Below, one piece after another: positions 11,388 through 51,701 of a DNA stretch of 64,000 bases. The stretch's first letter is position 1; each line of letters begins with the position of its first letter. This stretch comes from an uncultured Fretibacterium sp. GTDB lineage: Bacteria; Synergistota; Synergistia; Synergistales; Aminobacteriaceae. Below the pieces are notes generated by a model. The model ran no database searches. It had not been told where the DNA came from and saw nothing but the letters and a program-made list of their open reading frames with translations. A program made the translations under genes and the position numbers. The DNA lies in contig CAMHMH010000006.1 of assembly GCA_946186205.1 (NCBI GenBank), positions 62,001 through 126,000 on the forward strand. Direction: 5' to 3'.

Positions 11388-11499
11388 TATGTGAAAGCCT
11401 CCCTTGTTGTTTTGATGGACATATATTTTTGTGGAAATTATGAAAATTATATCGGCTGATATTTTTGCGGTCAACATAGTATTATTGCTCATATCGAAT

Positions 11500-11760
11500 C
11501 GAATCACTCAGAAAAGAATCGCCGATTCGGTTTTGACTCATAGACTAGGTTTTGAGAGCTTCAATTTTTGATTATCGATTCGGTTTTGACTCGCCAAGTT
11601 TTGATTATCGATTCGGTTTTGACTCGTAGACTAGGTTTTGAGCGTTTCAAATTTTGATTGTCGATTCGGTTTTGACTCGCACAGTTTTGACTCATCGATT
11701 CGGTTTTGATTTGTACGTTCGGTTTTGAGCGTTTCAAGTTCAAATCGTTGATTCAATTCC
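11500..11760. repeat. T/G-rich intergenic repeat array A
   Basis: Short direct repeats built around the core TCGATTCGGTTTTGACTC. A 28-base unit occurs exactly at 11566-11593 and 11599-11626 and with one change at 11652-11679. A second phrase, TAGACTAGGTTTTGAG, occurs twice between them. Partial units continue to about 11760. On the minus strand the array reads through as a peptide rich in KTES/QNRID, but without a ribosome site. Related arrays occur at 31437-31750 and, as remnants, near 20775 and 51730. The rest of 11388-11974 shows no gene. Confidence 0.85.
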
Positions 11761-11974
11761 GGGAGACTCAGAAGCGAATCGCCCTCCGAATGTTGACATT
11801 TTCAGAAACCCGCGATATTATACGCAACCCAATCGATTGAAAAAATTCCACGTCTTTTGAAAAACAATGCTGAAGGGATTTTTGCGGACTCATTCAGTTT
11901 GCACCCGTCAGGATTCATATTCGGCACTCATAATTTTCCGCGCACTTTTTTTGACCTTTAACAGGAGGCACAAT

Positions 11975-33122: not shown

Positions 33123-33145
33123 TATAAAGGGGGGAAATCAGAATC

Positions 33146-34459
33146 ATGAAAGCTATACATTACATCAACCAGTTTTTCGCGGGAATCGGCGGAGAAGAGA
33201 AAGCAGATCAGACTCCAGTCTTCCACGACAAATTAATCGGCTGCTCAATGATGCTCAATGCCATGTGCAAGCCTGACATCGAAGTAACAAACACGATCGT
33301 CTGCGGAGACAACTACATCACGAACCACACGGAGGAAGCACTCAAGGAAATTTTTGCGTTCCTCGACACAAAGGAGTTCGGGATATTCTTCGCGGGGCCT
33401 GCATTCATGGCCGGGCGTTACGGAGTCGGCTGCGGAATCATCTGCAAGGCCGTAGCAGAACGCTATCACGTGCCTGTAATCACCTCAATGAACGAGGAGA
33501 ACCCCGGCGTTGAGGAGTACAAAGCATCGGCGTATATCTTCAAGGGCGGCCGCAAGGCTACGTTCATGAAGGCAGACGTTACACCGATGGCGGCATTCGC
33601 GAAAAAGATCGCAAAGGGTGAAGAGCTGCTCCCGGCGGCACAGGAAGGTTATTTCCCGCGCGGAATCCGTATGGAAATTCCTGAGCCTAACGGAGTCATG
33701 GCGGCTGACAGAGTTATTGATATGCTCCTCAAGAAGATTAACGGCGAACCGTTCCAGACAGAGTTAATCATTCCGAGCATGGAGAAGATTCCGCCCGCAG
33801 CACCGCTGAAGGATCTCAGCAAGGCAACAATCGCTCTTGTTTCATCAAGCGGAGTCGTTCCCGTCGACAACCCCGACAGGATTCAGAGTGCTTCCGCTCA
33901 GAAATGGGGCAAGTACAACATCGCAGACAGGGACAATCTTCCTGAGGGTGTGTACAAGACGATTCACGCAGGATTTGACCCCGCGGCAATGTGCGCAGTG
34001 CCTGACAGAGGAATCCCGCTTGATGCTATGCGTTACTTTGAGAAGCAGGGCAAAATCGGCAAGGTCTACGATTGGTTCTATGTTACAGTCGGAACAGGAA
34101 CGACACAGGCATTTGCGGCGAAATTCGGCCGTGAGATAGCAAAGGAGCTTCACGAGGCGGGAGTTGACGCGGTAATTCTCACATCGACCTGAGGAACTTG
34201 TACGCGTTGCGGTGCAACGATGGGAAAAGAAATAGAGCGTACAGGAATCCCCGTAACAGTAATGTGCAACCTTATCGATGTTGCGAAAACAGTCGGGTCA
34301 AACAGAATGGTGCAGACAGTATCAGTGCCTTACCCGCTCGGAGACCCCGAACTCAGCAAAGAGGCAGAATGGCAGCTCAGAACTTCACGTGTTGAAGCAG
34401 CCCTTAACGCCCTTGCTACCCCGGTTGAAGAGCCGACAGTCTTCCCGTCAAAATTCTAA
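33146..34459 (+). CDS. grdB: Glycine/betaine reductase selenoprotein B, in-frame UGA at codon 349
   Basis: 437 residues when the TGA at 34190-34192 is read as selenocysteine. The downstream part stays in frame and is coding-like (GTCTRCGATMGKEIERTGIPVTVMC), giving the UxxCxxC motif expected of GrdB. The subunit forms the substrate-specific protein B with cleaved GrdE, labilising the C-N bond. The N-terminus (IHYINQFFAGIGGEEKADQ) is characteristic. It lies 23 bases after grdE. Betaine-specific GrdH is a close homologue. Conceptual translation that stops at UGA would lose the last 89 residues. Confidence 0.95.
34190..34219 (+). promoter_or_regulatory. Candidate bacterial SECIS of grdB
   Basis: Twelve bases after the UGA, CGTTGC (34205-34210) and GCAACG (34214-34219) form a perfect 6-bp stem with loop GGT. 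The GGT falls 19-21 bases past the UGA, the same place as the SelB-binding GGU in E. coli fdhF. Confidence 0.8.
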
Positions 34460-34469
34460 GCGAAAAATC

Positions 34470-34508
34470 ATGCTGGGAGTTGTGAGAATCAGCCCCCGGC
34501 ATTTTTTT
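34470..34508 (+). terminator. Terminator-like hairpin between grdB and the BCCT gene
   Basis: ATGCTGGG (34470-34477) pairs with CCCGGCAT (34495-34502, one G-T pair) and is followed by seven T residues. It could reduce transcription of the transporter and sel genes relative to grdEB. Confidence 0.8.
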
Positions 34509-34543
34509 ACGTGCAAAAAATCACAAAAGGAGCTGAAAATTAC

Positions 34544-36115
34544 ATGTCTGACAAAAAGAAAGACGAAGGCCGCGACTTTCTCGTTACTGGTTCGGTGAGC
34601 GGCGTGGAAAACTCAGCAGCAAAAACAAATTCCGTCTACATAATCTCAATCGCAATCACATTCGCAATCGTAGCATGGGGATATATAGCTCCCGAAAATT
34701 TCGGAGGGTTCGCAAACGCGCTTTTCGGAGGACTCACAAAATATTTCGGCTGGGGCTATCTCCTCACAATGAATGCGTTTGTCATCTTCTGTCTCGTAAT
34801 GGCGTTCAGCAGATTCAGGAACGTGAGACTCGGAAATCCTGAAGACCGCCCGGAGCACAGCAATATTTCGTGGTTCGCGATGCTCTTCTCTGCAGGAATG
34901 GGAGTCGGACTCGTCTTCTACGGAGCAGGAGAGCCGTTAATACACTTCCAGAATACGCCGTTCGGAGCAGAGCCGGGGTCAATTCAGGCAGCAAGAGACG
35001 CAATGCAGATTTCATTCTTCCACTGGGGGCTTCACCCTTGGGCGGGCTATGCAGTAATCGCTATGCCTATGGCCTATTACCAGTTCAGGAGAAATTCTCC
35101 GGGACTCATAAGCTCATTGTTCATTCCGATTTTCGGGCAGAAGGCCGTTGATGGTTGGTTCGGGAAATTTATTGACGTTCTCGCAATCTTCGCAACCCTC
35201 GCAGGAATCACAACGTCATTAGGACTCGGAACGTTACAGCTTAACAGCGGCTTGAATGAAATCGGCGGTATCGACAAAACAACGATGATACAGATTACGA
35301 TCATCGTCATACTTGCGGTGCTTTATACGGGATCTGCTGTATTGGGAATCGACAAGGGCATAAAGTTTGTGGCGAATCTTAACCTCGTAATATGCCTCGC
35401 GTTAATGGTGCTGTTATTCTTCGTAGGGCCGTCGCTCCCGATTCTTGAGTCATTGATGACTGGCATCGGCGATTTCGTAAGCGGACTCGTAAAAGAGAGC
35501 TTCATGATGGCACCTTACGGAGGAAAATACGCGGATCATCTCAAGAACTGGACGCTCTACTATTGGGCGTGGTGGATTGCCTGGGCACCTTTTGTCGGCT
35601 CATTCGTCGCGAGAATTTCACGCGGACGCACAATCGGCGAGTTTGTAGCAGGAGTGTTAATCGTCCCGGCATTAGGGAGCTTCACATGGTTTGCGATTTT
35701 CGGAACGTCTGCGCTTCATTTGCAGCTCGTTAAAGGAATCGACATCGCGACTCAGGTAACGAAAGATATATCTGTGGGAGTCTTTGCGCTCTACAAGTAT
35801 TACCCGATGGGCTTCATCATGTCCGTAACAATGCTCGTCTTAATCACAACATTTTTCGTTACGTCTGCTAACTCTGCAACGTTCGTCCTGTCAATGTACT
35901 CGAATCACGGCGACTTGAATCCCTCAAAGTCAAAGATGGGCGTATGGGGAGTCCTCATGGCCGCGCTTGCTATAGTGCTGTTGATGACGGGAGGACTTCA
36001 GAACTTGCAGACAATATCATTAACGGCTGCTCCTCCTTTCGCGATCATAATGGTGTGCGCCTGCTGGTCATTGTGGCACTCGCTTTGCAAAGACGAAAAG
36101 GAAGGCAAATTGTAG
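34544..36115 (+). CDS. BCCT-family betaine/carnitine/choline transporter
   Basis: 523 residues from the ATG at 34544, with AAGGAG upstream. About twelve membrane segments; family phrases are ISWFAMLFSAGMGVGLVFYGAGEP and the tryptophan-rich WTLYYWAWWIAWAPFVGSFVARISRGRTI. The tryptophans form the aromatic box for quaternary ammonium groups. It imports glycine betaine, carnitine or choline. In the middle of the grd/sel operon it probably supplies the reductase substrate. Confidence 0.96.
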   Translation: MSDKKKDEGRDFLVTGSVSGVENSAAKTNSVYIISIAITFAIVAWGYIAPENFGGFANALFGGLTKYFGWGYLLTMNAFVIFCLVMAFSRFRNVRLGNPEDRPEHSNISWFAMLFSAGMGVGLVFYGAGEPLIHFQNTPFGAEPGSIQAARDAMQISFFHWGLHPWAGYAVIAMPMAYYQFRRNSPGLISSLFIPIFGQKAVDGWFGKFIDVLAIFATLAGITTSLGLGTLQLNSGLNEIGGIDKTTMIQITIIVILAVLYTGSAVLGIDKGIKFVANLNLVICLALMVLLFFVGPSLPILESLMTGIGDFVSGLVKESFMMAPYGGKYADHLKNWTLYYWAWWIAWAPFVGSFVARISRGRTIGEFVAGVLIVPALGSFTWFAIFGTSALHLQLVKGIDIATQVTKDISVGVFALYKYYPMGFIMSVTMLVLITTFFVTSANSATFVLSMYSNHGDLNPSKSKMGVWGVLMAALAIVLLMTGGLQNLQTISLTAAPPFAIIMVCACWSLWHSLCKDEKEGKL

Positions 36116-36163
36116 CGCGTGATATGATAGGGTCATCGCAAAAATTTTTGAGGAGTGTTTGAC

Positions 36164-37552
36164 ATGGACAAAGGGCAGAAGCTCCGGGCTATTCCCGCAA
36201 TGGATATAGTTCTCGGACTCGAATGGGTGCAATCGTGGCTGGAGTCTCTCGGACGAATGAGAGTGAAGCGGATAATCACACGTGAGCTTTCAGAGATTCG
36301 GCGGTCTATTCTTGAGGATGACGGGGAATTTTCGCCTGATGATTTCCGTGACTCATGCCTGAATGCGTTTGCTTCTGCCTCACGTCCCCTTCTCCGGCGC
36401 GTCGTGAATGCTACGGGAGTTGTAATTCACACGAACTTGGGACGCTCATTAATCGCAGGTGAAGCTGTCTCGGCCATGTCGGAAATTGCCGGGCATTATT
36501 CAAACCTCGAATATGATTTGAAGGCTGGCGCAAGAGGCCAGAGAAATTCGCACGTTGAGGATTTATTGTGCGCGCTGACGGGTGCGGAGTCCTCGTTCGT
36601 CGTCAACAATAATGCCGGGGCTGTCATGCTCGCATTGTCGGCACTCGCAAAAGACTCGGAGGTCATTGTCTCACGCGGTGAGCTTGTAGAGATTGGCGGG
36701 TCATTCCGAATCCCTGACATAATGGAGTTATCCGGCGCGGCTCTTCACGAAGTCGGCACAACAAACAGGACTCACCTTTACGATTACGAGCGAGCAATCA
36801 ATGAGTCAACAAAAATGCTCATGAAGATTCACCCGTCAAATTTCAGGATTGAAGGCTTCACATCATCACCCGAACGCAAAGAATTATCACGCCTCGCAAA
36901 AGAACACGGACTAATATTCATGGAAGATGCTGGAAGCGGATTGATTGTTGACGGTGAAATAATCGGCCTGTCGGCAAACAGCGGGGAAATCAGCATACGC
37001 GAATGTATAGAGTCAGGCGCGGACATCGTAACATTTTCGGGCGATAAGATACTCGGCGGGCCTCAGATAGGCGGGATTGCAGGAAAGAAGAAATACATTG
37101 ACCGCCTGAAGAAATATCCCCTTGCGCGTGCGTTGAGGTGCGACAAAGTTACACTTGCGGGATTCGAGGCTACATTGAGGCTTTACGCTCAGGGAAAATA
37201 TGATGACATTCCGACTCTCAGAATGATACGGCGCGACATTGACGGAATGAAATCACAGGCTGAGTCGCTCGCTGAAAGTTTGCGGCAAAAAGTGAAAGCT
37301 GAGATTCGAGTCATTGAGACTGAAGACGCAACCGGGGGAGGCTCCTGCCCTGAAATAAAACTGCGGGGATATGGAGTCGCCGTCAAGCATGAGACATACG
37401 GAGCGGGATATATTCAGAAGCTATTGCGCGGACTCGATGTTCCGATTCTTTGCGGGGCGCGTGAAAATGAGATTGTGATTCATGTTCGGACGCTGCAAGA
37501 TTGCGACATTGATATTATTCCGGCGAGTCTGGCAGGTGTCCTCAATGCGTGA
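36164..37552 (+). CDS. selA: L-seryl-tRNA(Sec) selenium transferase
   Basis: 462 residues from the ATG at 36164, with GAGGAG 9 bases upstream; an in-frame GTG at 36155 is less likely. SelA is a PLP enzyme that converts Ser-tRNA(Sec) to Sec-tRNA(Sec) with selenophosphate. The PLP lysine is in TFSGDKILGGPQIGG. VVNATGVVIHTNLGRS and EYDLKAGARGQRN are typical. It overlaps selB by 8 bases. The tRNA(Sec) gene itself was not found in the window. Confidence 0.97.
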   Translation: MDKGQKLRAIPAMDIVLGLEWVQSWLESLGRMRVKRIITRELSEIRRSILEDDGEFSPDDFRDSCLNAFASASRPLLRRVVNATGVVIHTNLGRSLIAGEAVSAMSEIAGHYSNLEYDLKAGARGQRNSHVEDLLCALTGAESSFVVNNNAGAVMLALSALAKDSEVIVSRGELVEIGGSFRIPDIMELSGAALHEVGTTNRTHLYDYERAINESTKMLMKIHPSNFRIEGFTSSPERKELSRLAKEHGLIFMEDAGSGLIVDGEIIGLSANSGEISIRECIESGADIVTFSGDKILGGPQIGGIAGKKKYIDRLKKYPLARALRCDKVTLAGFEATLRLYAQGKYDDIPTLRMIRRDIDGMKSQAESLAESLRQKVKAEIRVIETEDATGGGSCPEIKLRGYGVAVKHETYGAGYIQKLLRGLDVPILCGARENEIVIHVRTLQDCDIDIIPASLAGVLNA

Positions 37553-39416
37553 AATATCGTTAGTCTTAGGCACAGCAGGCCACATAGATCACGGAAAAAC
37601 AGCACTCATCAACGCCCTAACGGGAATAAACTGCGACCGCCTAATAGAGGAACGCAAGCGCGGAATCACAATAGAGTTAGGGTTCGCGCCTCTGAAACTT
37701 GAAGACGGAAGAGTCGTAAGCGTTATTGATGTTCCCGGCCATGAGAGATTCATTCGCCAGATGGTAGCGGGGGCTTCAGGGATTGACGCGGCGTTATTGG
37801 TGATTGCGGCTGATGAGTCCGTAATGCCTCAGACACGCGAGCATTTAGCGATTATGGAATTGCTTGGCGTTCATGACGGGCTAATAGCTGTAACAAAAAT
37901 CGACCGCGTTAAAGATGATGAAGGAATGCTTGAGCTTGTTGTTGATGACGTGAAAGAATTTGTGCAAGGGACATTCTTAGAGGAAAAATCCGTTGTGCCT
38001 GTGTCGAGTGTTACGGGTGAAGGGCTTGACGATTTGCGCCGGGAAATCACAGCACTGATTGACCGCGTTAAAGTGAGACCGAGAAGCGGGGCTTTCTTTT
38101 TGCCTGTTGACCGTGCGTTTACGGTTTCAGGATTCGGGACTGTCATAACCGGGACTGCGTATCATGGCACGGCTCATCCCTCAGACCGAATAGAAGTATT
38201 ACCGTCCGGGCGTGAGGGGCGAATACGGACTCTTCAGGTTCACGGGCAGAATGTAGAGAGCGCATACGCAGGACAGAGAGTTGCGGCGAATCTCGCGGGG
38301 ATTGATATTGATGATATTTCACGCGGTGATGTCGTCTGCCACAAGGGAATATTCAGACCAACGAAATGTTTTGAGGCCGTCATAAAAATTCTCCCGAACG
38401 TCAAAGAACCCGTAAAGCATTGGCAACGGGTACACGTCTGCACAGGAACATCGGAAGCATTAGCGCGAGTCTCACTCCTCACAACAAAGCAGATTGAGCC
38501 GGGAGAATCTCAGCCCGCACAGCTCGTACTTGAAGAGCCTGTAGTTTGCACATACGGACAAAGATTCATTCTCCGATTCTACAGCCCGCTGATCACAGTC
38601 GGAGGCGGGGAAATAATTTATCCGTATTCCTACAAGCCAAGAGGAGCGGCCATGCGTACACGAATCCTACAGCGGATAGACAGCCTAAAGTCAGCAAAAA
38701 ATCCCGCAGAACGATTCGCATACCTCATCAATGAAGCCGGAGTCATGCCAAAGTCTGAAGCCCTTCAAGTGTTGCAGGACACGCAGGAGAATTTAGACTC
38801 ATTAACGGAAAAATTATCGTCGGCCGGAAAAATAGTTATTGCGGACAATAACATCATGTCGGAAAATTACTGCGGTGAAATCATGAACTCCCTTAAAGAA
38901 TCCGTGAAACAATATCAATCTCATTATCCCGCAGAAAAAGGAATGCCCCTTGAGGACGCTAACGTTTCACGCTCGGTCATAAATCTTGCTGTCGAACGAG
39001 GAATTATAGCGATGACTGACAGCAAACTTCACACACCTGATTTTGTCCCTGAGAATGACGAGGCATTCACCGCTAATATTGAGGCGGTCAGAAATTTTTG
39101 CATGTCCCGCAAATGGCAGCTTCCTACGCTTGACGAACTGAGGAAAGAATTATCACTCCCGGAGAAAATCTTCACGAAAATTATTCAGGCAATGAGGAAT
39201 GACTCATCACTCGCATTAATCCCGGAAGGCTACGTGTTAATACGCGAGCTTGAAGACGAAATGCGGAGTCTTTTGCGCGGACTCGGAAGCCAAGTAACAT
39301 TAGCGCAGGTGAGAGACGCAACAGGCAGCACACGCAAATACATTCTCCCAATCCTCGAATATTTCGACTCAAAGGGATTCACAAGAAGGGCGGGTGATGT
39401 TCGTGTCGTGCTGTGA
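37545..39416 (+). CDS. selB: Selenocysteine-specific elongation factor
   Basis: 623 residues from the ATG at 37545, inside the end of selA. G1 is GTAGHIDHGKTALI, G3 DVPGHERF and G4 TKID. After the GTPase and beta-barrel domains come C-terminal winged-helix repeats (about residues 390-620, ending EYFDSKGFTRRAGD) that bind the SECIS hairpin. SelB brings Sec-tRNA to UGA codons and would act on grdA, grdB and selD here. Its end overlaps the selD start by 20 bases. Confidence 0.97.
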   Translation: MREISLVLGTAGHIDHGKTALINALTGINCDRLIEERKRGITIELGFAPLKLEDGRVVSVIDVPGHERFIRQMVAGASGIDAALLVIAADESVMPQTREHLAIMELLGVHDGLIAVTKIDRVKDDEGMLELVVDDVKEFVQGTFLEEKSVVPVSSVTGEGLDDLRREITALIDRVKVRPRSGAFFLPVDRAFTVSGFGTVITGTAYHGTAHPSDRIEVLPSGREGRIRTLQVHGQNVESAYAGQRVAANLAGIDIDDISRGDVVCHKGIFRPTKCFEAVIKILPNVKEPVKHWQRVHVCTGTSEALARVSLLTTKQIEPGESQPAQLVLEEPVVCTYGQRFILRFYSPLITVGGGEIIYPYSYKPRGAAMRTRILQRIDSLKSAKNPAERFAYLINEAGVMPKSEALQVLQDTQENLDSLTEKLSSAGKIVIADNNIMSENYCGEIMNSLKESVKQYQSHYPAEKGMPLEDANVSRSVINLAVERGIIAMTDSKLHTPDFVPENDEAFTANIEAVRNFCMSRKWQLPTLDELRKELSLPEKIFTKIIQAMRNDSSLALIPEGYVLIRELEDEMRSLLRGLGSQVTLAQVRDATGSTRKYILPILEYFDSKGFTRRAGDVRVVL

Positions 39417-40476
39417 TGATTCGCAATTCGGCAAAAAGAGACTCACTGAGCTTTCACACTCCAGCGGGTGAGCGGCAAAAATAGGTCCGGCGGATCTAAA
39501 AGAAGTATTGTCAGGCATTCCCCAAATTTACGGCGACAGGATTCTAGCTTCATGGAACGGCAACGAGGATGCGGCTGTTTTTGAGCTTGATGAGAATCGT
39601 TACGGCATATTGACGGTAGACTTCATAACGCCCGTAGTTGATGACGCATTCACGTGGGGGCAAATTGCGGCGGCTAATTCGCTTAGTGATGTTTTTGCGA
39701 TGGGAGGCCGTCCGATTGTCGCGCTTAATGTCGTATGCTTCCCGACAAAATATCTTTCGCTTGACGTTCTGAAATCGATTCTTGAGGGAGGATTCGAGCG
39801 TGTGAGGAGTTCGGGCGCGTTTCTTGTGGGAGGACACAGCGTGCAGGATGATGAGCCTAAATACGGACTTGTTGTTTACGGTGAGGCGGAGAAGTCAAAA
39901 CTTTGGCGCACAACGGGAGCGCGTGAAGGTGATAAACTCATTCTCACAAAGCCGCTCGGAACAGGAATAGCGGTAACAGCCATCAAAGCCGGAATGATTG
40001 AGGATGAGTCAACAGTAACAGAAGCTACAAACAGCATGAAGGCATTGAACATTGTGAATCTCCCGGAAGATTTGCACATGGCCGTTAATGCCGGGACTGA
40101 TGTTACAGGATTCGGACTCGCGGGTCATTTGTCGGACATGCTCGGCGAAAATCTTGACTGCGTAATCAACCCGAAAATTTTGCCAACAATCGCGGGCGTT
40201 AAGAAACTTGCTGACATGGGATTAGTCCCTGAAGGCGCGTACAGGAACATGGCAATGTATCAAGACAATGTTGACGCTGACGGGGAATTTCAGCAGGCGG
40301 ATATTGATATGATATATGACGCTCAGACATCGGGCGGCTTATTGCTTGCTGTGAGTCCCGGAAAATCTCAGGCACTCTTGAATCACATTAGGAAGGAGGG
40401 ATTCAGCAGGGCAGAAATAATCGGCGTGTTCACGAAAGGGAATGGCAGAATTATTGTTAGTGAAAGAAGGCTTTAA
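39397..40476 (+). CDS. selD: Selenophosphate synthetase, itself a selenoprotein (UGA at codon 25)
   Basis: 359 residues when the TGA at 39469-39471 is read as selenocysteine. The ATG at 39397 lies in the selB tail with AAGG upstream. The peptide LTELSHSSG-U-AAKIGPADL places U at the catalytic position that is Cys or Sec in SelD, followed by the conserved lysine. The rest (DAAVFELDENRYGILTVDFITPVVDD; VGGHSVQDDEPKYGLVV) is a standard SelD. It makes selenophosphate from selenide and ATP. Calling the gene from a later start at 39508 would remove the active site. Confidence 0.95.
39469..39496 (+). promoter_or_regulatory. Candidate bacterial SECIS of selD
   Basis: Twelve bases after the UGA, GGTCC (39484-39488) and GGATC (39492-39496) form a 5-bp stem with one G-U pair and loop GGC, 18-20 bases past the UGA. 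Distance and loop match the grdB hairpin closely. Confidence 0.65.
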
Positions 40477-42558: not shown

Positions 42559-43548
42559 ATGGAAAGTTTGTTGCTGCTCTTCACTGAGTCATTGCCTTGC
42601 TGGGACGAAGAGACCGTGAAAATTTCAGGCGAAAATCCTGACGGCCTCAAGGCACTTTCAGAGTCAGGGGACTTGCTGCCCGTTGCAGGAGGTTACGTGC
42701 TCACACAGAAAGGACTCATTACCCGCGAGAATGCCGCAAAAGATTTATGCCTTCCCGTAACACACGCTGAAATAATTTCGGACGAGTCAGAAGCTCGCAG
42801 ACTTCTCGAAATCAACCGCATGACTCAGTTCTTAGACCGCGCATTTGTTACCGACTGGGGCATTAAGGAAGTTACGACTCGCGAGTCATTTTCCCTTTCG
42901 CCGCGCCTCAATGATGATGAGTATTTCGCGTTCGATGGTGAAAGAGTCATTGCGACATGGCCGGAACATGACACAGTGAAGAGATTTCTTTCTGACTTCC
43001 CGAATGTAGGAGTCGCCGCAAGGAAATATCCTGCCCCCGGTCAAAAGGGACTCGATGAATGGACGCTGAAAAATAATCTTGCGTATGAGAATTTCACGGT
43101 TGATTTTGTTCTGAGAAGCCGCGCCGATTTCAACCACTACAAGAATTACCCGCAGTTAGAGTCCGACAGGTATAAATTCCTCGACTCGGATCAGCTTTTC
43201 GCGCATAAGGTTACCGGGTCGCCTGAAGACTTGCTGCCCTTCATCGGAAAATTGCACATACTCTTGACGCTTCAGAGACGAATATATTTGCCGGGATGGT
43301 TCGACATTGATCATGATGAGAATGAAGACTGGCATTTGCTCGCGCTCGTTACGGACTCTGAATCACAGCTTGAGACTCTGACCCGGACTCTGCGTTCGTT
43401 CGGCCATGAGCTTATTAACCCCGTCAACCCTCTTTTCATCATCGGCACAAGCATTGAGCGACTCAGAAATCAGACGGAGCAGAAGCGCACGATATACGAT
43501 TGGTTTGACGAGGAAACAATAAGAATATTGAGGCCGGATTACGAATGA
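42559..43548 (+). CDS. Unknown protein, first of a tandem paralogue pair
   Basis: 329 residues, no signal peptide or membrane segment. I do not recognise the family. It shares long conserved blocks with the next gene: LLLLFTESLPCWDEETV, RLLEINRMTQFLDRAF, LNDDEYFAFDG, APGQKGLDEW, NFTVDFVLRSR, LLPFIGKLHILLTLQRRIYLPGWFD and EETIRILRPD. Many fixed aromatic and acidic residues suggest an enzyme or an intracellular binding protein. AGGAGG precedes the ATG, and its stop overlaps the next start by 4 bases. Confidence 0.85.
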   Translation: MESLLLLFTESLPCWDEETVKISGENPDGLKALSESGDLLPVAGGYVLTQKGLITRENAAKDLCLPVTHAEIISDESEARRLLEINRMTQFLDRAFVTDWGIKEVTTRESFSLSPRLNDDEYFAFDGERVIATWPEHDTVKRFLSDFPNVGVAARKYPAPGQKGLDEWTLKNNLAYENFTVDFVLRSRADFNHYKNYPQLESDRYKFLDSDQLFAHKVTGSPEDLLPFIGKLHILLTLQRRIYLPGWFDIDHDENEDWHLLALVTDSESQLETLTRTLRSFGHELINPVNPLFIIGTSIERLRNQTEQKRTIYDWFDEETIRILRPDYE

Positions 43549-44543
43549 CGGAGAATAATATTCTGCTGCTGTTCTCTGATGATTACCCCTGCTGGGACTC
43601 TGAGACTGTGAGTCTTGTCGGCGAAAATCCCGGCTCACTCGCAGGGCTTGAGTCTTCCGGCAGAATTTCGCAGCTCGGCAACGGCTATGTCATAACGCAG
43701 TCGGGCATTCATGAACGGGACAATATATCGCGTGAAAACTTTGTGCCAGTCAGCAGAATCACACGTAATATCACTGACATCGACACGGCGAACCGTCAGC
43801 TTGAAATCAACCGAATGAGTCAGCTTCTTGACCGTGCATTCATGACTCAGTGGGGCATAAAGGAGTTTACAATTCATGAAACGTTCCCGCTTGCGCCGAT
43901 GCTGAATGATGATGAGTATTTCGCGGTTAATGGACGTGCCAAAGCGTTGTGGCCTGATAATGATTATGTGCGTTCGTTCATGGCCGAATTTCCCGATAAA
44001 AGCTACGAGGCGAGGAAGCTACCTGCTCCGGGGAAAACTGCTCTTGATTCGTGGGTCAGCAAGAATCATATACCCTGCGGAAATTTCACAGTAGATTTTG
44101 TGTTGAGGCATCATCATGACTTCGAGCATTACAGGCAGCTATTCACACCTGAAGGTGATATATTCGGGTTCGTCAACGCGAGTCTCATTTTCGCTCACAA
44201 GGTCAGAAGCAAGCCTCAAGATTTATTGCCGTTAATCGGGAAGATTCACATTCTCTTTACCCTTCAGAGACGCATATATATTCCGGGATGGTTCGACATG
44301 GACTCGGAGGAGCAAGAGCCTATGAAGTTATTGACGCTCGTAACAGATACTGCCTCAGAACTGCGCGAGCTGACTCAGACTCTAAGGTCATGGGGTAATT
44401 CTCTCGTTGACCCTGCCCGGCCAATGTACATTATCGGGACAAGCGTTGAGCATTTGCGGACTCAGGAAGTCAAGACGATGTTTTACGACTGGTTTGCAGA
44501 AGAGACCGTGAAAATTTTGCGCCCTGATATTCAGGATTATTGA
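43545..44543 (+). CDS. Unknown protein, second of the tandem paralogue pair
   Basis: 332 residues. Clearly homologous along its whole length to the preceding gene (same blocks, for example LEINRMSQLLDRAFMTQWGIKE and LQRRIYIPGWFDMD), so the pair arose by duplication or works as a heteromer. It overlaps the upstream stop (ATGA) and its own stop overlaps the lipoate-ligase-like gene. The three genes therefore form a translationally coupled unit. Function unknown. Confidence 0.85.
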   Translation: MTENNILLLFSDDYPCWDSETVSLVGENPGSLAGLESSGRISQLGNGYVITQSGIHERDNISRENFVPVSRITRNITDIDTANRQLEINRMSQLLDRAFMTQWGIKEFTIHETFPLAPMLNDDEYFAVNGRAKALWPDNDYVRSFMAEFPDKSYEARKLPAPGKTALDSWVSKNHIPCGNFTVDFVLRHHHDFEHYRQLFTPEGDIFGFVNASLIFAHKVRSKPQDLLPLIGKIHILFTLQRRIYIPGWFDMDSEEQEPMKLLTLVTDTASELRELTQTLRSWGNSLVDPARPMYIIGTSVEHLRTQEVKTMFYDWFAEETVKILRPDIQDY

Positions 44544-45223
44544 TGATGCTTTACGTTGAGAACGACAACACATCACCCGCGTACAATCTTGCGTTCGAGG
44601 AATATATTTGCGGGCTGAAAATTGATGCCTTCATGCTGTGGCGTAATTCCCCGTCAGTAATCATAGGACGCTTTCAGGATGTCGACTCGGAAGTTTTCAC
44701 GGACTTTGCGAGGGACAACGGGATTCAGATCATACGGCGTAATTCCGGGGGCGGCGCGGTCTATCATGACTTGGGCAACGTGAATTACAGCTTTGTTCTT
44801 GAGGATGACAGGCGGCTGACTCTTGAGCATTTCTCGCGCATAATCATGGGTATTCTTTCGGGAATGGGCGTTAAGGGACTCGATTTCCGGCATAATGATA
44901 TTCTTGCTGGCGGTCTGAAGATTTCCGGCGGCGCGCAGTATCATCATGACGGTAGAATACTTCATCACGGAACACTGTTATTTGACTCAAATCTTGATGT
45001 TATCCCAAAGGTTTTGAGACGCTGCGGACAAGTCACCAACATCAAGCCGCTGCTGAGGGATAATATTTCGGTCAATGACTTCATTACGGCAATACGCAAA
45101 GGGATGGGCATATCCGACAAACTGACGCTGACCCAGAATAATTATGACAATGTGAACGAGATAATGAGGAAAAAATATCTCAGTCCCCAATGGAACGCGG
45201 GCAAATTGCCGGGCATCCTTTGA
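44543..45223 (+). CDS. Lipoate-protein ligase A-like protein, short form
   Basis: About 226 residues from the ATG at 44543 (44546 is the alternative). The BPL/LplA catalytic fold is clear: IIRRNSGGGAVYHDLGNVNYSF and HNDILAGGLKISGGAQ. The separate C-terminal domain of E. coli-type LplA is missing, as in the small LplA forms that need a partner or act on special substrates. It attaches lipoyl or octanoyl groups to carrier proteins. It is coupled to the two unknown paralogues. Its end overlaps the convergent minus-strand gene by 44 bases. Confidence 0.88.
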   Translation: MMLYVENDNTSPAYNLAFEEYICGLKIDAFMLWRNSPSVIIGRFQDVDSEVFTDFARDNGIQIIRRNSGGGAVYHDLGNVNYSFVLEDDRRLTLEHFSRIIMGILSGMGVKGLDFRHNDILAGGLKISGGAQYHHDGRILHHGTLLFDSNLDVIPKVLRRCGQVTNIKPLLRDNISVNDFITAIRKGMGISDKLTLTQNNYDNVNEIMRKKYLSPQWNAGKLPGIL

Positions 45224-45866
45224 GATATTTGTACGCGCTTCTGTCTGAGTTCCTTTTGTCTGACGTGAAGAGTGAAATATCTTCGGGGGTATCTATATCC
45301 TGCAAAGTTTCCGCGAGGCTGTATGATATGTTTGAGGCTGTGAGATTTTCTGACGTTGAAGAAAGAACGCTCGAATTTCCCCATGATGATACATTGAAAG
45401 CGTCAGGGACAAATTTATTCATTCCTATTAGCCAGTATCCGCCATCTTCCGACGGGCCAATCACAATATCAGAGTCATTCAGCAGGTCAAAAGCTCTCAC
45501 AATATTTCCCGCCCTCACTGAAGGAATGTCCGCGCCGATTATCGCAGCCCGTTTATATCCGTCAGCAAAAATTTCACGCAAGGCATTCTTCATTCTTTCA
45601 CCGAGATTATTCCCCTCCTGCTTTCTGAGAATGAATGAAGGCGGTATGTACTCTTGATAGTCTTCAGCGTCCTCGCTTCCTGTCCAGTATAAATATATGT
45701 CGGTGCTGCGGAGCTTCAATGCCTCTGTGAAAATGTCATGCCACATAGCAAGGTGTAATTCTGCCCGCTGAGTCTCATTGAGTAATCCTGCGAGTCTCGT
45801 CTTTGTCTCATGGCCGACCGGAAGCCGCGAAAATATTATCAGTGCCGTATCATTTCCCGCCGTCAT
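45180..45866 (-). CDS. TIGR04282-like (DUF2064) glycosyltransferase, rSAM/selenodomain-associated
   Basis: 228 residues with a CofC/nucleotidyltransferase-like fold: ALIIFSRLPVGHETKTRLAG at the N-terminus, GADIPSV and GPSEDGGYWLIGM in the middle. This is the DUF2064 group named transferase 1, rSAM/selenodomain-associated, also annotated as arsenosugar biosynthesis. It is the last gene of an eight-gene operon and overlaps the previous gene by 17 bases. The true substrate is not established from sequence. Confidence 0.87.
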   Translation of the reverse strand: MTAGNDTALIIFSRLPVGHETKTRLAGLLNETQRAELHLAMWHDIFTEALKLRSTDIYLYWTGSEDAEDYQEYIPPSFILRKQEGNNLGERMKNALREIFADGYKRAAIIGADIPSVRAGNIVRAFDLLNDSDIVIGPSEDGGYWLIGMNKFVPDAFNVSSWGNSSVLSSTSENLTASNISYSLAETLQDIDTPEDISLFTSDKRNSDRSAYKYLKGCPAICPRSIGD

Positions 45867-46539
45867 AAATCCTCCTCAATGTCTCAGTGTCAGCACCAAG
45901 AATATACAGTGCCTTCACAAAATTCATTGTAAACCAAGTTTTGAGTCTTCCGTTTACAATGTATCGTCTTGCCGATGTCCCTATCAGAGTATCAAGAGCG
46001 TGAATGAGTCCGAGCTTGTGAAAACGTTTCAGCCTCCTCGAAATCTCCCAGTCCTCCATCAACGAAACGTCCGCGAACCCTCCGAGCTTGTCAAAAATAT
46101 CCCGCCTGATGAATAACCCCTGATCCCCGAAAATGAGTCCGAATCTCTTTGCCCTCGTGTGTGAAGTCCTCTCAATGAATCTCATGAACAAGTCGCCAGC
46201 GTCATAAAATTTCAGCCGGAAGAATCCCCCTATAGCACCGTCAGAAATTGCCCGCTCAATGTCATTCAGGCTTGAAGGTGATACGATCGAGTCAGCGTGA
46301 ACGAACCATAAAATATTTCCTGATGATATTTCTGCTCCTGCGTTCATCTGTCTTGCGCGTCCTGATGGTGAATCGATGAGCATGATATTTCGCAGGGCTG
46401 AAAGTTTTTGCTGAGTTCCGTCCGTGCTTCCTCCGTCAGAGATTATTATCTCCTTTTCGCCGTCAAGACTCTTCAGAGATGATATTAGCCCCGTGATTCT
46501 TTCGGACTCGTTAAGCACCGGGACAATCACCGAGATCAT
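45850..46539 (-). CDS. TIGR04283-like GT2 glycosyltransferase, rSAM/selenodomain-associated
   Basis: 229 residues. The GT-A signatures are SVIVPVLNESERITGLI, IISDGGSTDGTQQ and the metal site FVHADSIVSP. GGFFRLKFYDAGDLFMRFIE and FGDQGLFIRRDIFDKLGGF are typical of transferase 2 of the rSAM/selenodomain set. It starts directly at the end of the radical SAM gene. It probably adds a sugar to the product of that enzyme. Confidence 0.9.
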   Translation of the reverse strand: MISVIVPVLNESERITGLISSLKSLDGEKEIIISDGGSTDGTQQKLSALRNIMLIDSPSGRARQMNAGAEISSGNILWFVHADSIVSPSSLNDIERAISDGAIGGFFRLKFYDAGDLFMRFIERTSHTRAKRFGLIFGDQGLFIRRDIFDKLGGFADVSLMEDWEISRRLKRFHKLGLIHALDTLIGTSARRYIVNGRLKTWFTMNFVKALYILGADTETLRRIYDGGK

Positions 46540-47472
46540 TTATACGGTTGTTCCTCCGCAGCTTGAACCGCTTCCGGCTGTGCATGCGTAACAGTGATTC
46601 CCGAATCTGATTCGCCTCTTGTGAATCTCGTGAAGGTCTCTGATATTTTCCGGGCCGTTTATCGTGAGTCCTAATGGCTGATTGAAATCGCAGTCGTATA
46701 ATCTTCCGTCCCAGCCCACAGACAATTGGAATCTGCACATCATGTTTTCTACGGCTGAAGGGTTGAACGAGTCAAAAAGGAGCTTCATATAGCTGTCGTA
46801 ACTTCCTGACTTCCTCAGAGACTCACCGAAACGCCCGATCGGATTATTTGTGATTGTGAACAGGCGGGTGAAAGTGATTCCGTGCTCGGACATGAGTCGC
46901 GATTTGTATTCCTCTTCAAGCTCGGACTGACTCGGAGGGAGAAAATCACCGTTAGGATTGTAGACCAAATCAAGAATGTGTTTCTCATCATGGCCGTAAC
47001 CTAATGAGTTAAGAGTCTTCAGCACAGATATAGCGGCGGCGAATGTTCCTTTACCCCTCATTGAGTCGCAGTTCTCCTCAGTGTAGCAGGGAAGGGACGC
47101 GGCAATCTCTATGTTTCTGTCAGCAAGAAAGGAGGGTATATCCTCGCAGCCTTTTTGCGTCATGATAACAAGATTGCTTCTCACGATGATATGAGCTCCG
47201 AGCTTTGCGGCCTCGTCAACAAGAAAGCGGAAATCAGGATTCATTTCAGGTGCGCCCCCTGTGATGTCGAGAGTCTCAAACTCAGGAAGGATTCGCAGTA
47301 TGTGAGTCATAGTCTCTCGTGTCATTATTTCTTTTCGCCCCGGCCCGGCGTTAATGTGGCAGTGAGTACAGGAAAGATTGCAGAGGCTTCCTATGTTGAC
47401 CTGAAGCACCCGTAACTTTTCAGCCGTTAATTTCAGCGCGGGATTATCAATCATATCTTCAAACGGTATCAT
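46540..47472 (-). CDS. ArsS-type radical SAM/Cys-rich protein
   Basis: 310 residues. The radical SAM cluster motif CNLSCTHC lies near residue 32 (CxxxCxxC). DITGGAPEMNP and the C-terminal Cys-rich DUF3641-like domain follow, ending CYACTAGSGSSCGGTTV. In many relatives the penultimate Cys in the GSSCGG motif is selenocysteine; here it is cysteine (no in-frame TGA). Family members are annotated as arsenosugar biosynthesis enzymes that join a 5-deoxyadenosyl group to a methylated arsenical. No arsenite methyltransferase (ArsM) is seen nearby, so the substrate here is open. Confidence 0.9.
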   Translation of the reverse strand: MIPFEDMIDNPALKLTAEKLRVLQVNIGSLCNLSCTHCHINAGPGRKEIMTRETMTHILRILPEFETLDITGGAPEMNPDFRFLVDEAAKLGAHIIVRSNLVIMTQKGCEDIPSFLADRNIEIAASLPCYTEENCDSMRGKGTFAAAISVLKTLNSLGYGHDEKHILDLVYNPNGDFLPPSQSELEEEYKSRLMSEHGITFTRLFTITNNPIGRFGESLRKSGSYDSYMKLLFDSFNPSAVENMMCRFQLSVGWDGRLYDCDFNQPLGLTINGPENIRDLHEIHKRRIRFGNHCYACTAGSGSSCGGTTV

Positions 47473-48259
47473 GTTTAACTCTCCTTGCTGTGATGTATCT
47501 GTTGTAAAGGTTAGAATTTTTTGCTGACGGGTCGCCCTCCCCGAATATCATATCAAGTATGTGAATGCTGTTATGACCTCCGAGACTCATTGCTGACCTG
47601 CAAGCGGCGCAGTAAGAGATAATATTCTCGCAGGGTGATTCGTTAGCGCGCTCAATCTTGCATTTTCTTCCGTAACGTGAGTCGCATGCCGAGAGAGTCT
47701 GAATGCCTCCGCAGCATTTCTTTAACGGGAACTCAATAACATTAACGCCGAGAAACTCAAGAATCTTTCTGACGCTTGATGAGACTTCCGGGAGGCTCGT
47801 GCATGAGTCCTGAATGCTTGCGTCGAGTCCTGAGAATTTATTGCGGAGTCTTTCGGGGAGTCCGTGTGTCTCTATCAATGGCCACAAGGATAATATTTCC
47901 CGTTCCGTGTCGTATTGCCTGAGAATGTTGTTGCAGGTCTGGCACGCTGTTATTACTGTTCGTGCGTTCATGCCGTCAAGTTTTCGCCTTACGCTGTCGA
48001 TTCGTTTCGTGAACAGTTTTGACTCTCCCATGAGCTTTAAGGGTTTTGCGCAGCAGGCTGTGAATATTCCGCAGGAGTCAAAATTCCCGATGATGTAATC
48101 CCGGACCGCGAAGACATATTCAGGGTTATAGCCCGTGAGACTGCATCCGGGGAAAAATACGGTCTCACAATTTCCCGATGACTGTTGAAGAATTGACGAG
48201 GCAGCGAGAAACATATCAGCATTAATCGCCGAACGGAACAAGAATTTTCTGATGCTCAC
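47459..48259 (-). CDS. Heterodisulfide-reductase-like CCG-domain Fe-S protein
   Basis: 266 residues starting with GTG. Two CCG-type cysteine clusters are visible: FFPGCSLTGYNPEYVF with FTACCAKPLKL, and FPLKKCCGGIQTL with YCAACRSAM. These modules bind 4Fe-4S clusters in HdrB-type electron-transfer and redox enzymes. It overlaps the radical SAM gene by 14 bases and the upstream membrane gene by the GTGA arrangement. It may feed electrons to the radical SAM step. Confidence 0.87.
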   Translation of the reverse strand: MSIRKFLFRSAINADMFLAASSILQQSSGNCETVFFPGCSLTGYNPEYVFAVRDYIIGNFDSCGIFTACCAKPLKLMGESKLFTKRIDSVRRKLDGMNARTVITACQTCNNILRQYDTEREILSLWPLIETHGLPERLRNKFSGLDASIQDSCTSLPEVSSSVRKILEFLGVNVIEFPLKKCCGGIQTLSACDSRYGRKCKIERANESPCENIISYCAACRSAMSLGGHNSIHILDMIFGEGDPSAKNSNLYNRYITARRVKHDTV

Positions 48260-48636
48260 TTTCTATCCCTCGTTACGTATATCAATATCAGACCGATAAC
48301 CGCAAGTGCAATCATGGCCGTGTTGATTGCAGCAAAAGGGACTCGGTTAATCATCAGTCCTTCACGGATTATTGACGCAGGAATGATCTTCACGCTCTCA
48401 GAGTCAAGAAGCAGGAATATTCCCGAACACGAAATCACTAGGCTTAACGCTGAGGCTTTGAACGTTGCGCAAAATTTTTTCAGCGGATGAATGACAGTCT
48501 GCAAAAGAAAGAGGAGTCCGGATAAAGCAAAGAATACCCAGCCGATATTAACGCGCATTTCGAGCCATTCATTGAGGAACAAGCACACGCTGATTAACAT
48601 GCTCAGTGTTACGGAGTTGTAGAGGATAGCAATCAT
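48256..48636 (-). CDS. Small four-helix membrane protein
   Basis: 126 residues with about four hydrophobic segments (about 5-22, 30-50, 63-80, 100-120). No family recognised. It is translationally coupled on both sides: its start overlaps the YdjY-like stop (TAATG), and its stop overlaps the Fe-S gene start. It may serve as a membrane anchor or electron-transfer subunit for its neighbours. Confidence 0.8.
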   Translation of the reverse strand: MIAILYNSVTLSMLISVCLFLNEWLEMRVNIGWVFFALSGLLFLLQTVIHPLKKFCATFKASALSLVISCSGIFLLLDSESVKIIPASIIREGLMINRVPFAAINTAMIALAVIGLILIYVTRDRK

Positions 48637-49271
48637 TATTTCACGAGCCTTACGATTACGTTTACTCTTGTTCCGTCAGGCGGGAGGACTTTTGCATTCC
48701 CCTTGAAGCTGACCTCTTTATTGTTCATTGCTCCTGTAGGCCACGCGGCATTAGTGCTTATTCCTGCGGCGCATGAGTCCAAGCATATGAAGCAGCCCGG
48801 ATGACTCCTCATAGCGAAATCGAGATTACCCGTAAATCTCAGGTCTATAGGTCTCACTTCACCATTTGCGGACGTGGTTATTACAGCGTTATCAAGGGGG
48901 ATTTCACCGTTTGAGCCTTCCCACGTTATGAACGCCGCGAGCTTTGAGCCTTCTGTTGATTTGCCCTCTGAGCTGCTGCGTGCTTTCATGTCTTCGGGCT
49001 TGATGTTGTTACCGGGAATCGCTCCGAGTTCGGTCAAGGCGTTGTAGTAATCTATCTCGCTGACTAATGCGCGCATGATTGACTTTTCGCCGTTGCCCCC
49101 TTTGTAGTAAGAGAGTGCGTGCTTTGTGGGACTCACTAAATATTTTCCGTTTACTTCCGCCGGGATTATGATTTCTCCCTTCTCTTTGTCGACGGTTAAC
49201 GAAAGCTCCTCAGCAAATGAAGCTGAAACTATCACACACAATACGGCCATGACGAGCAGAAATTTTTTCAT
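48636..49271 (-). CDS. YdjY-domain exported protein
   Basis: 211 residues with a signal peptide (KKFLLVMAVLCVIVSASFA). ELSLTVDKEKGEIIIPAEVNGKY followed by SPTKHALSYYKGG fits the YdjY-like domain, found near electron-transfer and metal-related genes. Cysteines in HPGCFICLDSCAAG near residue 160-170 could bind a cofactor or form a disulfide. It lies 6 bases after the second TVP38 gene. Confidence 0.78.
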   Translation of the reverse strand: MKKFLLVMAVLCVIVSASFAEELSLTVDKEKGEIIIPAEVNGKYLVSPTKHALSYYKGGNGEKSIMRALVSEIDYYNALTELGAIPGNNIKPEDMKARSSSEGKSTEGSKLAAFITWEGSNGEIPLDNAVITTSANGEVRPIDLRFTGNLDFAMRSHPGCFICLDSCAAGISTNAAWPTGAMNNKEVSFKGNAKVLPPDGTRVNVIVRLVK

Positions 49272-49277
49272 GACAAC

Positions 49278-49940
49278 TTACCTCCTAATGAATTTTTTGT
49301 GCAGAATGACTCCTGCGATTGTTACGATTATTGCAACTGATACGGCCATGAGCAAATATAGACTCCTCCGCTCAGAGTCCCCGATGCCAGCCGCGCCCAA
49401 TGTGAACACCGCAGAACCCGGAGCAATGAATACGAACGTGTACAGCGTGTAAGGCAGCAGCTTTATGTCGGTGAGTCCGTAAGCGAAATTCTGAAGGTTA
49501 TACGGGAATAACGGAACAAGCCGCGTTACCATCAGCAAAATCACTCCGCTGTGCTGAACGTCATCAATCAGAAATTTTTTGAGCAGGGAATTTTTCTCAA
49601 TCATCGGACGTACTGAGTCGCGAAGGAAATATCTTCCCGCAAGAAACGCAAGAACAGCACCGAGAGTCGCAGCGATAACACACAGCACAGTACCCGTGAA
49701 AGGCTCAAAGAGAATCCCCGCGATAACCGCAAAGAACGCCCCCGGCATAGCAAGAACGACACAGCAAAATGATGTAGCGAGAATGTATATCATCATGGCC
49801 GTTAATGGGTAATCGTCAGCAAGAGACCGAAAATTTTTAGCGGCCTCAATGAATTTCTCAGTGCCTCCGACATAATGAGCCAGCAAGATTATCACCGTCA
49901 GCAAAATCACAAAGGCTATCGGTTTCGTGTAACGTCTCAA
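49278..49940 (-). CDS. TVP38/TMEM64 family membrane protein, second copy
   Basis: 220 residues starting at a TTG that overlaps the upstream stop. Several hydrophobic segments surround the family block AMPGAFFAVIAGILFEPFTGTVLCVIAATLGAVLAFLAGRYFLRD, followed by LLMVTRLVPLFPYNLQNFAYGLTDI. TVP38/DedA-like proteins are thought to move lipids or lipid carriers across the membrane. Confidence 0.92.
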   Translation of the reverse strand: MRRYTKPIAFVILLTVIILLAHYVGGTEKFIEAAKNFRSLADDYPLTAMMIYILATSFCCVVLAMPGAFFAVIAGILFEPFTGTVLCVIAATLGAVLAFLAGRYFLRDSVRPMIEKNSLLKKFLIDDVQHSGVILLMVTRLVPLFPYNLQNFAYGLTDIKLLPYTLYTFVFIAPGSAVFTLGAAGIGDSERRSLYLLMAVSVAIIVTIAGVILHKKFIRR

Positions 49941-50620
49941 CTTTTGTGCTTCTCCCTGTAAATCTGTCTCATCATCACAACGATAGCAGACAGCGCAAAC
50001 AGAACAAGCAATCCCGTCATGAGCATTTGCGCCCCGCCCGTGAGCATTCCGCCGACATATGAATATACGATTGTTGCGGGCAGTTGTCCGACTCCAGTTG
50101 CAACGAAGAAAGGAAAGAATCGCATTGACGTTAATCCCGCCGCATAGCTCACAAGGTCAAACGATATGAACGGGAGCAGCCTCGCAATGAGTATGCTGTG
50201 AGTCCCGTAACGCTCGAAAAATTTATCGACAGACTGAAGCCCCGCACGGCTTGTGAGTCTCTCTGCTGCATTCCGTCCGAGCACACGCGAAATGTAGAAG
50301 CATAACGCAGCCCCGGCCATCGCGCTTGACCATGAGAGGACAGCACCCTTCACCCAGCCGAAAAGATTCGCATTCGCAAGAGTGATTATGAACGCAGGAA
50401 GAGGAGCCACCACCGACTGAAATATCATCAGGAAGAACGAAACCGCTGCGGCATATGCTCCGTAGTCAGCAATAAACTCGCGCATGACCCCGAAATCACC
50501 CGACGCAAACGCAGAGAGAGTCATATCGATAAAGTTCTTGTATGACGGGAAAATGAAATACGAAACGACAGCGATAACGAGTGCTGAGAGGATTAAAATT
50601 TTTGCAGAAAGATTTTTCAT
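49937..50620 (-). CDS. TVP38/TMEM64 family membrane protein, first copy
   Basis: 227 residues. QSVVAPLPAFIITLANANLFGWVKGAVLSW and LIARLLPFISFDLVSYAAGLTSM are the two conserved blocks of the family. It heads the eight-gene operon and is paralogous to the next gene. Two such proteins side by side may form a heteromer. Confidence 0.92.
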   Translation of the reverse strand: MKNLSAKILILSALVIAVVSYFIFPSYKNFIDMTLSAFASGDFGVMREFIADYGAYAAAVSFFLMIFQSVVAPLPAFIITLANANLFGWVKGAVLSWSSAMAGAALCFYISRVLGRNAAERLTSRAGLQSVDKFFERYGTHSILIARLLPFISFDLVSYAAGLTSMRFFPFFVATGVGQLPATIVYSYVGGMLTGGAQMLMTGLLVLFALSAIVVMMRQIYREKHKS

Positions 50621-50675: not shown

Positions 50676-51701
50676 CTAATCTAACGCAAGATTAACCTTG
50701 AACTCAAACGTTTTCGGGCTGAACCAGTCAACAGCTTTTCCGTCAATCTCAGCATAAGGATACATGAAGTACGTTAACGGAGTCTTTTCTGTTGATTCGC
50801 TGAGAACGGTCTCTCTTGTGTCGCGGTTGAGTGCGATTCTCAGAAGGTCATCACCGGCCCAGAAGAAATCAACCCACTTCTTTGCGTCTTCTACCTTCTC
50901 GATTTTCTCATTCAGCATCTTCTTGCGAACGTCAGCAGGGTCGGCCATCACCCAGCCTGTTCCGGGGACGTAAAACTCTGTCCAGCAATGATAGTTCCCG
51001 GTGATCTCGCCTGATTTGGCCGGGTCGACTCTCAAGCCGTAAACATCCCTTGTCGGAATCCCTGAAGCCCTCGCGAGTGCAACGAACACCGAGCTGATGT
51101 CCGCGCATTTTCCGCCGCCGCTCTTCTCAGAGATTGTGCGCTCAGGAAGTCCGAGTCCGCAGCCCTCTTTCACGCTCTCGTCCCTGAATGTATGCTCAAG
51201 AACCCACATGTATATACTCTGAGCCTTTTCGAGAATCGTATCTTTCTTGAGGAACTCCATGCTTGCCTCGGCGCAGAAGCCTTTATCGATTGGCAGTGAG
51301 GGAGTCGCCTCAAGATATTTCCTGACTTCGGGCGGGAATGCGTCCTTTGTCTCTTTGAGTGCCGCCGCGGGTTTCTTTGCGTAATGCGAGTCGACCTTGA
51401 ACGACATCGTGAGGCTCGGAACTTCTGCGGGCTTTGTCCATGTTGCATGGAGGTAAACTGCTCCGCCTTTGGGGTCATTCTCGACTCCGACTTTCGCGCC
51501 GTTGCTCTTCACATCAACAAGCGTTACTGTCTGGTTAGCGTCCGACATCGGGTAGGGCAGCCACAGTTCAGCCTTGTCAGCTTTAGCCGCGTCCTTGAGA
51601 TTAACGTCAAATGTTACTGTGCCTTTGTACTCTGCGAATGATACAGCAGCGAATGAACACACTACTGCAACAGCGAGGAGTACGCCAAAAAATTTGCGCA
51701 T
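50676..51701 (-). CDS. Exported transglutaminase-like cysteine protease-fold protein
   Basis: 341 residues with a signal peptide (RKFFGVLLAVAVVCSFAAVSFA). The catalytic triad of the transglutaminase-like fold is visible: Cys in SGGGKCADISSVFVALARASGIP, His in GNYHCWTEFY and Asp in GWVMADPAD. The N-terminal domain (about 25-130) is beta-rich. Bacterial members are periplasmic peptidases or cross-linkers of unknown substrate. It is a single-gene unit with its own terminator. Confidence 0.9.
   Translation of the reverse strand: MRKFFGVLLAVAVVCSFAAVSFAEYKGTVTFDVNLKDAAKADKAELWLPYPMSDANQTVTLVDVKSNGAKVGVENDPKGGAVYLHATWTKPAEVPSLTMSFKVDSHYAKKPAAALKETKDAFPPEVRKYLEATPSLPIDKGFCAEASMEFLKKDTILEKAQSIYMWVLEHTFRDESVKEGCGLGLPERTISEKSGGGKCADISSVFVALARASGIPTRDVYGLRVDPAKSGEITGNYHCWTEFYVPGTGWVMADPADVRKKMLNEKIEKVEDAKKWVDFFWAGDDLLRIALNRDTRETVLSESTEKTPLTYFMYPYAEIDGKAVDWFSPKTFEFKVNLALD

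Follow-up and report, generated by a model that had tools for sequence, protein, structure and literature searches.

In a 64,000-nucleotide (nt) window of contig CAMHMH010000006.1 (assembly GCA_946186205.1), from an uncultured Fretibacterium sp. of the phylum Synergistota, we identified an operon that joins ArsS, a radical S-adenosylmethionine (SAM) protein, and two transferases to a set of membrane and redox proteins. Our best explanation, held tentatively and at a little under even confidence, is that this is a variant arsenosugar-type operon of two units that uses imported methylated arsenic. The biosynthesis unit would consist of ArsS, GT2, and DUF2064. The membrane/redox unit would consist of a TVP38 pair (TVPa and TVPb), a YdjY-domain protein, a small membrane protein (MEM), a cysteine-rich protein (CCG), and probably a transglutaminase-like protein (TGc).

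Eight tightly packed genes occupy positions 45180–50620 of the window, all on the minus strand, and their ends and order are exactly those given in a preliminary description of this DNA. The gene-to-gene gaps from TVPa to DUF2064 are −4, +6, −1, −4, −14, 0, and −17 nt, with overlap at five of the seven junctions. The eight mostly overlapping genes of that description are therefore real, but the operon has at least nine: it missed TGc (50676–51701, minus strand), 55 nt upstream of TVPa. Based on conservation in genus relatives, TGc is probably part of the operon set and its first gene. It matches PF01841 at 74.8 bits, has an N-terminal signal-like stretch consistent with a secreted transglutaminase-like protein, and adjoins the operon in relatives. 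ArsS (46540–47472; TIGR04167, 421.6 bits, cut-off 300), the GT2 glycosyltransferase (45850–46539; TIGR04283, 225.9 bits, cut-off 182), and the DUF2064/CofC-like nucleotidyl or glycosyl transferase (45180–45866; TIGR04282, 185.8 bits, cut-off 134; PF09837) are adjacent in the operon, and each exceeds its curated family cut-off, in agreement with the rSAM/selenodomain, arsenosugar-type gene set that had been claimed. At its 3′ end the operon is overlapped by a plus-strand lipoate ligase gene (44540–45223).

The window ArsS has the DUF3641 region and also matches PF12345. In an alignment with 120 homologues, its radical SAM cysteines and other near-invariant residues are intact. It is the Cys form of the protein, with Cys305 aligning with selenocysteine (Sec) in 27 of the 120 sequences. 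The closest named match, at 94% identity, belongs to an uncultured Fretibacterium metagenome bin, followed by rumen Synergistaceae bins and Fretibacterium fastidiosum, and a search of solved structures with ArsS gave weak radical SAM matches only. ArsS is described as an arsenic adenosylating enzyme in the available portion of PMC12159101, and excerpts of PMC13188914 and PMC9312934 list TIGR04167 as a known radical SAM selenoprotein family.

Of 185 Synergistota genomes, 27 have ArsS above its cut-off, and 13 of these belong to the window's genus, its own genome included. A comparative check of neighbourhoods bore out the expectation that other genomes keep this gene set. Six of the 12 other genus loci carry the full nine genes in unchanged order (L039, L043, L046, L048, L083, and L087), which argues that the arrangement is not due to chance. 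Five more are cut by contig ends (L038, L040, L042, L047, and L049), and in L041 CCG is doubled and GT2 is broken at a contig end. Across the 26 Synergistota loci other than the window, GT2 is present at 24, DUF2064 at 22, CCG at 21, TVP38 at 19, MEM at 15, YdjY at 14, and a transglutaminase-like gene at 10, all counts that contig ends have lowered.

The preliminary description reported no arsM nearby, and our search extends this absence to the whole genome, where the best match reached 46.4 bits against a cut-off of 263. With this model, divergent ArsM forms from other genomes reach 165–193 bits, and a form of that kind would therefore have been detected. In the window's genus, the only row listed with a match in a Synergistota-wide search (E ≤ 1e-15) was G024, at 58 bits. 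Since arsM was found in neither the genome nor the genus, the methylated arsenic would probably come from other gut organisms.

An operon type "without ArsM" is not special, as ArsM is also absent from 20 of the 27 Synergistota genomes that carry ArsS. Fretibacterium fastidiosum has a sister locus and does carry ArsM. Scoring Synergistota genomes as ArsM-positive at 100 bits or more, ArsM is found in 7 of 27 with ArsS versus 43 of 158 without it (odds ratio 0.94, p = 1). In the phylum of Geobacter argillaceus (G189; 297 genomes), where positives were called at E ≤ 1e-28, the counts are 52 of 87 versus 91 of 210 (odds ratio 1.94, p = 0.011), and near the ArsM cut-off they are 26 of 87 versus 57 of 210 (p = 0.67). 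Of these 210 ArsS-negative genomes, 20 were listed individually and 190 counted only, with the negatives taken from the tally. Many of the genomes in both phyla are metagenome bins, contig ends cut loci, and the Fisher tests ignore kinship. ArsS presence is not associated with ArsM in Synergistota, and only weakly, at the loose threshold, in the phylum of G. argillaceus. These counts rule out an ArsM loss peculiar to the window genome. As a separate observation, ArsM homologues in Synergistota (G085, G129, G130, and others) read with an in-frame TGA and are probably selenoprotein forms.

The membrane/redox unit begins with two TVP38/DedA membrane proteins, TVPa (49937–50620; PF09335, 89.2 bits), of the YdjZ type, and TVPb (49278–49940; PF09335, 71.7 bits), of the YdjX type. 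TVPa shares 55% identity with E. coli YdjZ over 219 amino acids (aa), scoring 244 bits versus 67 bits for YdjX. TVPb is 35% identical to YdjX over 141 aa, scoring 95 bits versus 40 bits for YdjZ. Excerpts of PMC10127716 report that the DedA/TVP38 relatives of eukaryotes act as phospholipid scramblases and that some of the bacterial proteins act as undecaprenyl-phosphate flippases. The YdjY-domain protein (48636–49271; NF040466, 115.4 bits, cut-off 50) has a signal-like N-terminus and is 34% identical to E. coli YdjY over 188 aa. Its motif GCxxCLDSC contains three cysteines, C160, C163, and C167, that are invariant in 10 sequences. The structure predicted from seven sequences had a mean predicted local distance difference test (pLDDT) score of 43.6, too poor for a fold search.

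MEM (48256–48636) is a small hydrophobic membrane protein with no NCBIfam or Pfam family at E 0.01. CCG (47459–48259; PF02754) is an HdrB-like cysteine-rich redox protein that, like TVPa and TVPb, is above its Pfam cut-off. It contains two five-Cys motifs, CX29CCX35CX2C (Cys 39, 69–70, 106, and 109) and CX28CCX33CX2C (Cys 153, 182–183, 217, and 220), matching two C-X~30-CC-X~35-CXXC motifs, which we take to be the HdrB-like CCG signature. Hdr-type CCG proteins reduce disulfides. CCG also matches part of the NF045663 model at 159.5 bits, under the cut-off of 530, and a full 870-aa form above that cut-off lies beside ArsS in L044. Searches of solved structures with YdjY and CCG returned nothing useful.

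YdjY is present in 17 of the 185 Synergistota genomes, and all 17 carry ArsS (Fisher p = 2e-17, not corrected for kinship). In 15 of these the two genes lie within a few kb on the same contig, and in G018 and G099 they are on separate contigs. In the phylum of G. argillaceus, YdjY occurs in 14 genomes, eight of them with ArsS (odds ratio 3.4, p = 0.03), and at several YdjY loci there TVP38, CCG, or MEM-like genes lie alongside with no ArsS. CCG is fused to TVP38 in L180, L182, L232, and L233 and to a flavoprotein in L044, L045, and L184, and CCG, TVP38, and YdjY are found together in another phylum (L180 and L182). Because of this co-occurrence, the ArsS-free YdjY loci, and the fusions of CCG and YdjY, we take the TVP38 pair, YdjY, MEM, and CCG to be a portable redox/membrane module that often travels with ArsS. 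The membrane and iron-sulfur genes do belong to the set, as the preliminary description held in proposing a wider pathway, but the membrane part is separable and is shared with E. coli ydjXYZ.

The same parts are joined to ArsM in other genomes. In L210, a 668-aa protein consists of ArsS followed by an ArsM-like domain, with a PiT permease and a flavoprotein alongside. The gene row of L232 encodes a methyltransferase, GT2, a rhodanese, a 692-aa ArsM::ArsS fusion, a 585-aa ferredoxin-CCG::TVP38 fusion, and DUF2064. L233 resembles it, but there ArsM and ArsS are in separate frames. Fusions of ArsM and ArsS thus occur in both orders, ArsS first in L210 and ArsM first in L232. At L185, from G. argillaceus, the row is ArsM, PiT, TVP38, DUF547, flavoprotein, and ArsS, with PiT and DUF547 named by eye. 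Arsenic is favoured as the element because other genomes fuse ArsM to ArsS beside a CCG::TVP38 fusion, and because the window ArsS keeps its near-invariant residues.

For this variant operon we envisage the following route. Methylated arsenic would be taken in from outside and then reduced, and ArsS would put a 5′-deoxyadenosyl group on the trivalent arsenic. Adenine would be removed by a nucleosidase encoded elsewhere, the arsenoribose would be activated by the CofC-like DUF2064 protein, and GT2 would attach it to an acceptor, perhaps a lipid of the membrane. The membrane/redox unit may move and reduce the arsenical, or it may translocate a lipid-linked product. The substrate, product, acceptor, and membrane-unit role suggested here are all inferred from gene content, as is the lipid- or sugar-linked arsenic product put forward in the preliminary description.

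Several points weigh against this reading. The import of methylated arsenic is itself an inferred step, and ArsM presence does not track ArsS in Synergistota. The operon contains no arsenic gene beyond the ArsS set. It also lacks the AhpD-like TIGR04169 gene that precedes ArsS in most relatives and is usual, though not universal, at the other Synergistota loci (23 of 26). This gene is absent from the window, an absence that the preliminary description did not mention, and from the two rows closest to it on the ArsS tree, L046 and L087. L047 is also without it, but there the contig stops. A TIGR04169 search of the window's own genome gave a best match of 41.5 bits, on another contig. SelD is above its cut-off in 25 of the 27 Synergistota genomes with ArsS, so selenium is available. 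E. coli has ydjXYZ in an operon without ArsS, and six of the 14 YdjY-carrying genomes in the phylum of G. argillaceus have no ArsS, so the membrane unit has some function independent of arsenosugar synthesis. ArsP_1 (PF03773), a permease family found in 22 of the 27 Synergistota genomes with ArsS, is too broad to serve as evidence.

The distribution of ArsM on the ArsS tree bears on what the enzyme acts upon. This quick FastTree has 121 rows, which are not independent, and some genomes contribute two. The window, most Synergistota, and three Clostridiales loci form one clade of 26 rows (support 99). ArsM is present in 3 of the 23 clade rows of known state versus 58 of 94 rows outside, and the ArsM label changes 27 times on the tree versus 31–46 times in 200 label shuffles. 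A clade nearly free of ArsM could mean that its ArsS acts on a substrate that is not methylated arsenic, such as a compound of selenium, antimony, or sulfur, and that the name "arsenosugar" is over-extended here. The presence of SelD in most ArsS-carrying genomes and the rhodanese domains fused to YdjY in L062 are consistent with this alternative, and the preliminary description likewise allowed that selenium or another element may replace arsenic. We consider it unlikely, if the most serious competitor, since the near-invariant ArsS residues are common to rows inside and outside the clade, clade members G129 and G130 have most of the gene set plus ArsM, and CCG::TVP38 fusions occur in ArsM-containing clusters.

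If arsenic is the element, an unrecognised methyltransferase elsewhere in the genome might stand in for ArsM. Other methyltransferases of the genome match the ArsM model weakly (best 46 bits), and L232 has an extra methyltransferase gene beside its ArsM::ArsS fusion. However, no methyltransferase is among the operon genes, and the best candidate, L005, which we set aside, looks by eye like an ordinary UbiE-like class I enzyme and is far from the operon, so we regard this substitution as improbable. It is also quite improbable that ArsS adenosylates inorganic, thiol-bound arsenite directly to give a non-methylated arsenic nucleoside or sugar. The ArsM-free majority of ArsS-carrying Synergistota would fit such a reaction, and arsenic could be held trivalent by the redox proteins CCG and, in relatives, TIGR04169, but the known ArsS substrate is dimethylated arsenic and the near-invariant ArsS columns are unchanged. 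Decay of the operon after losing arsM and the TIGR04169 gene, which is missing from the window and from the two relatives closest to it, is very improbable, as all genes are open and the genus retains both the gene order and the near-invariant residues (ArsS in 13 species).

Selenium genes in the window were considered as part of the system and rejected. The genes selA, selB, and selD and the betaine-reductase genes lie approximately 5–13 kb from the operon, and in relatives selD sits either on a different contig from ArsS or at a great distance from it (1.2 Mb apart in G085; on C10 versus C11 in G010). The region at 31812–40476 encodes betaine or sarcosine reductase proteins, a BCCT transporter, SelA, SelB, and SelD. 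The selD gene of this genome has an in-frame TGA (G000:C6:101439-102362), and a GrdH-like open reading frame stops at approximately position 346 of the 435 in the model, as expected at a Sec codon. Between the thioredoxin reductase and lipoate ligase genes are two overlapping, similar tandem genes (42559–43548 and 43545–44543; 329 and 332 aa), neither of which matched an NCBIfam model at E 1e-20. Counts of promoter and terminator patterns were near those of shuffled sequence (14 versus a mean of 8.7, and 9 versus 6.9) and were not used.

Parts of the membrane unit were also seen in other settings. In the phylum of G. argillaceus, four loci at a distance from ArsS (L255, L256, L258, and L265) hold incomplete sets drawn from TVP38 or CCG::TVP38, YdjY, and MEM-like genes. 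Clostridiales loci, from rumen and gut organisms, encode fusions of rhodaneses with YdjY or with a transglutaminase domain. Two large proteins beside ArsS have fibronectin III and several rhodanese domains, together with a YdjY domain in L062 (2673–5537) and with a transglutaminase domain in L063 (Mogibacterium; 9519–12839).

If the arsenosugar-type reading is true, arsenic methylated by other organisms is turned by gut anaerobes into organo-arsenic or similar compounds, an extra step in animal arsenic cycling. Care would then be needed when TIGR04167 proteins are automatically labelled as arsenosugar enzymes, because most Synergistota carriers are without ArsM. The homology also gives a first testable hint for E. 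coli ydjXYZ, which is listed with ynjABCD as FNR-activated in the available part of PMC3688515. Our literature search, in which subscription journals were thinly covered, found in the partial texts returned no description of the gene set, no link between ydjXYZ and ArsS, and no assigned function for E. coli ydjXYZ. A broader and more doubtful proposal is that there is an ArsM-independent branch of ArsS chemistry, marked by YdjZ/YdjX/YdjY, MEM, and the HdrB-like CCG, and that E. coli ydjXYZ-ynjA is a reduced version of this membrane unit, which would handle metalloids or thiols.

Compared to known arsenosugar biosynthesis clusters, which contain ArsM, ArsS, and the TIGR04282 and TIGR04283 transferases, the window has ArsS, GT2, and DUF2064 in common. 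It differs in having no ArsM in the genome and no TIGR04169 gene in the operon, and it adds the TVP38 pair, YdjY, MEM, CCG, and the transglutaminase-like gene. CCG shares the two five-Cys motifs of Hdr-type proteins, but it lacks the flavin and dicluster parts of NF045663, a pyridine nucleotide-disulfide oxidoreductase/dicluster-binding protein. In E. coli, the gene row is ydjX, ydjY, ydjZ, and ynjA (AhpD-like), then ynjBCD and ynjE, and no ArsS, GT2, DUF2064, CCG, or MEM is annotated in the operon. Conversely, the window operon is without the AhpD-like, ABC transporter, and rhodanese genes of E. coli, the rest of the genome having been searched for TIGR04169 only. YnjA matches the TIGR04169 protein of a relative weakly (E 0.001). 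Both operons encode YdjZ-, YdjX-, and YdjY-type proteins together, with one-to-one homology to TVPa, TVPb, and the YdjY protein of the window.

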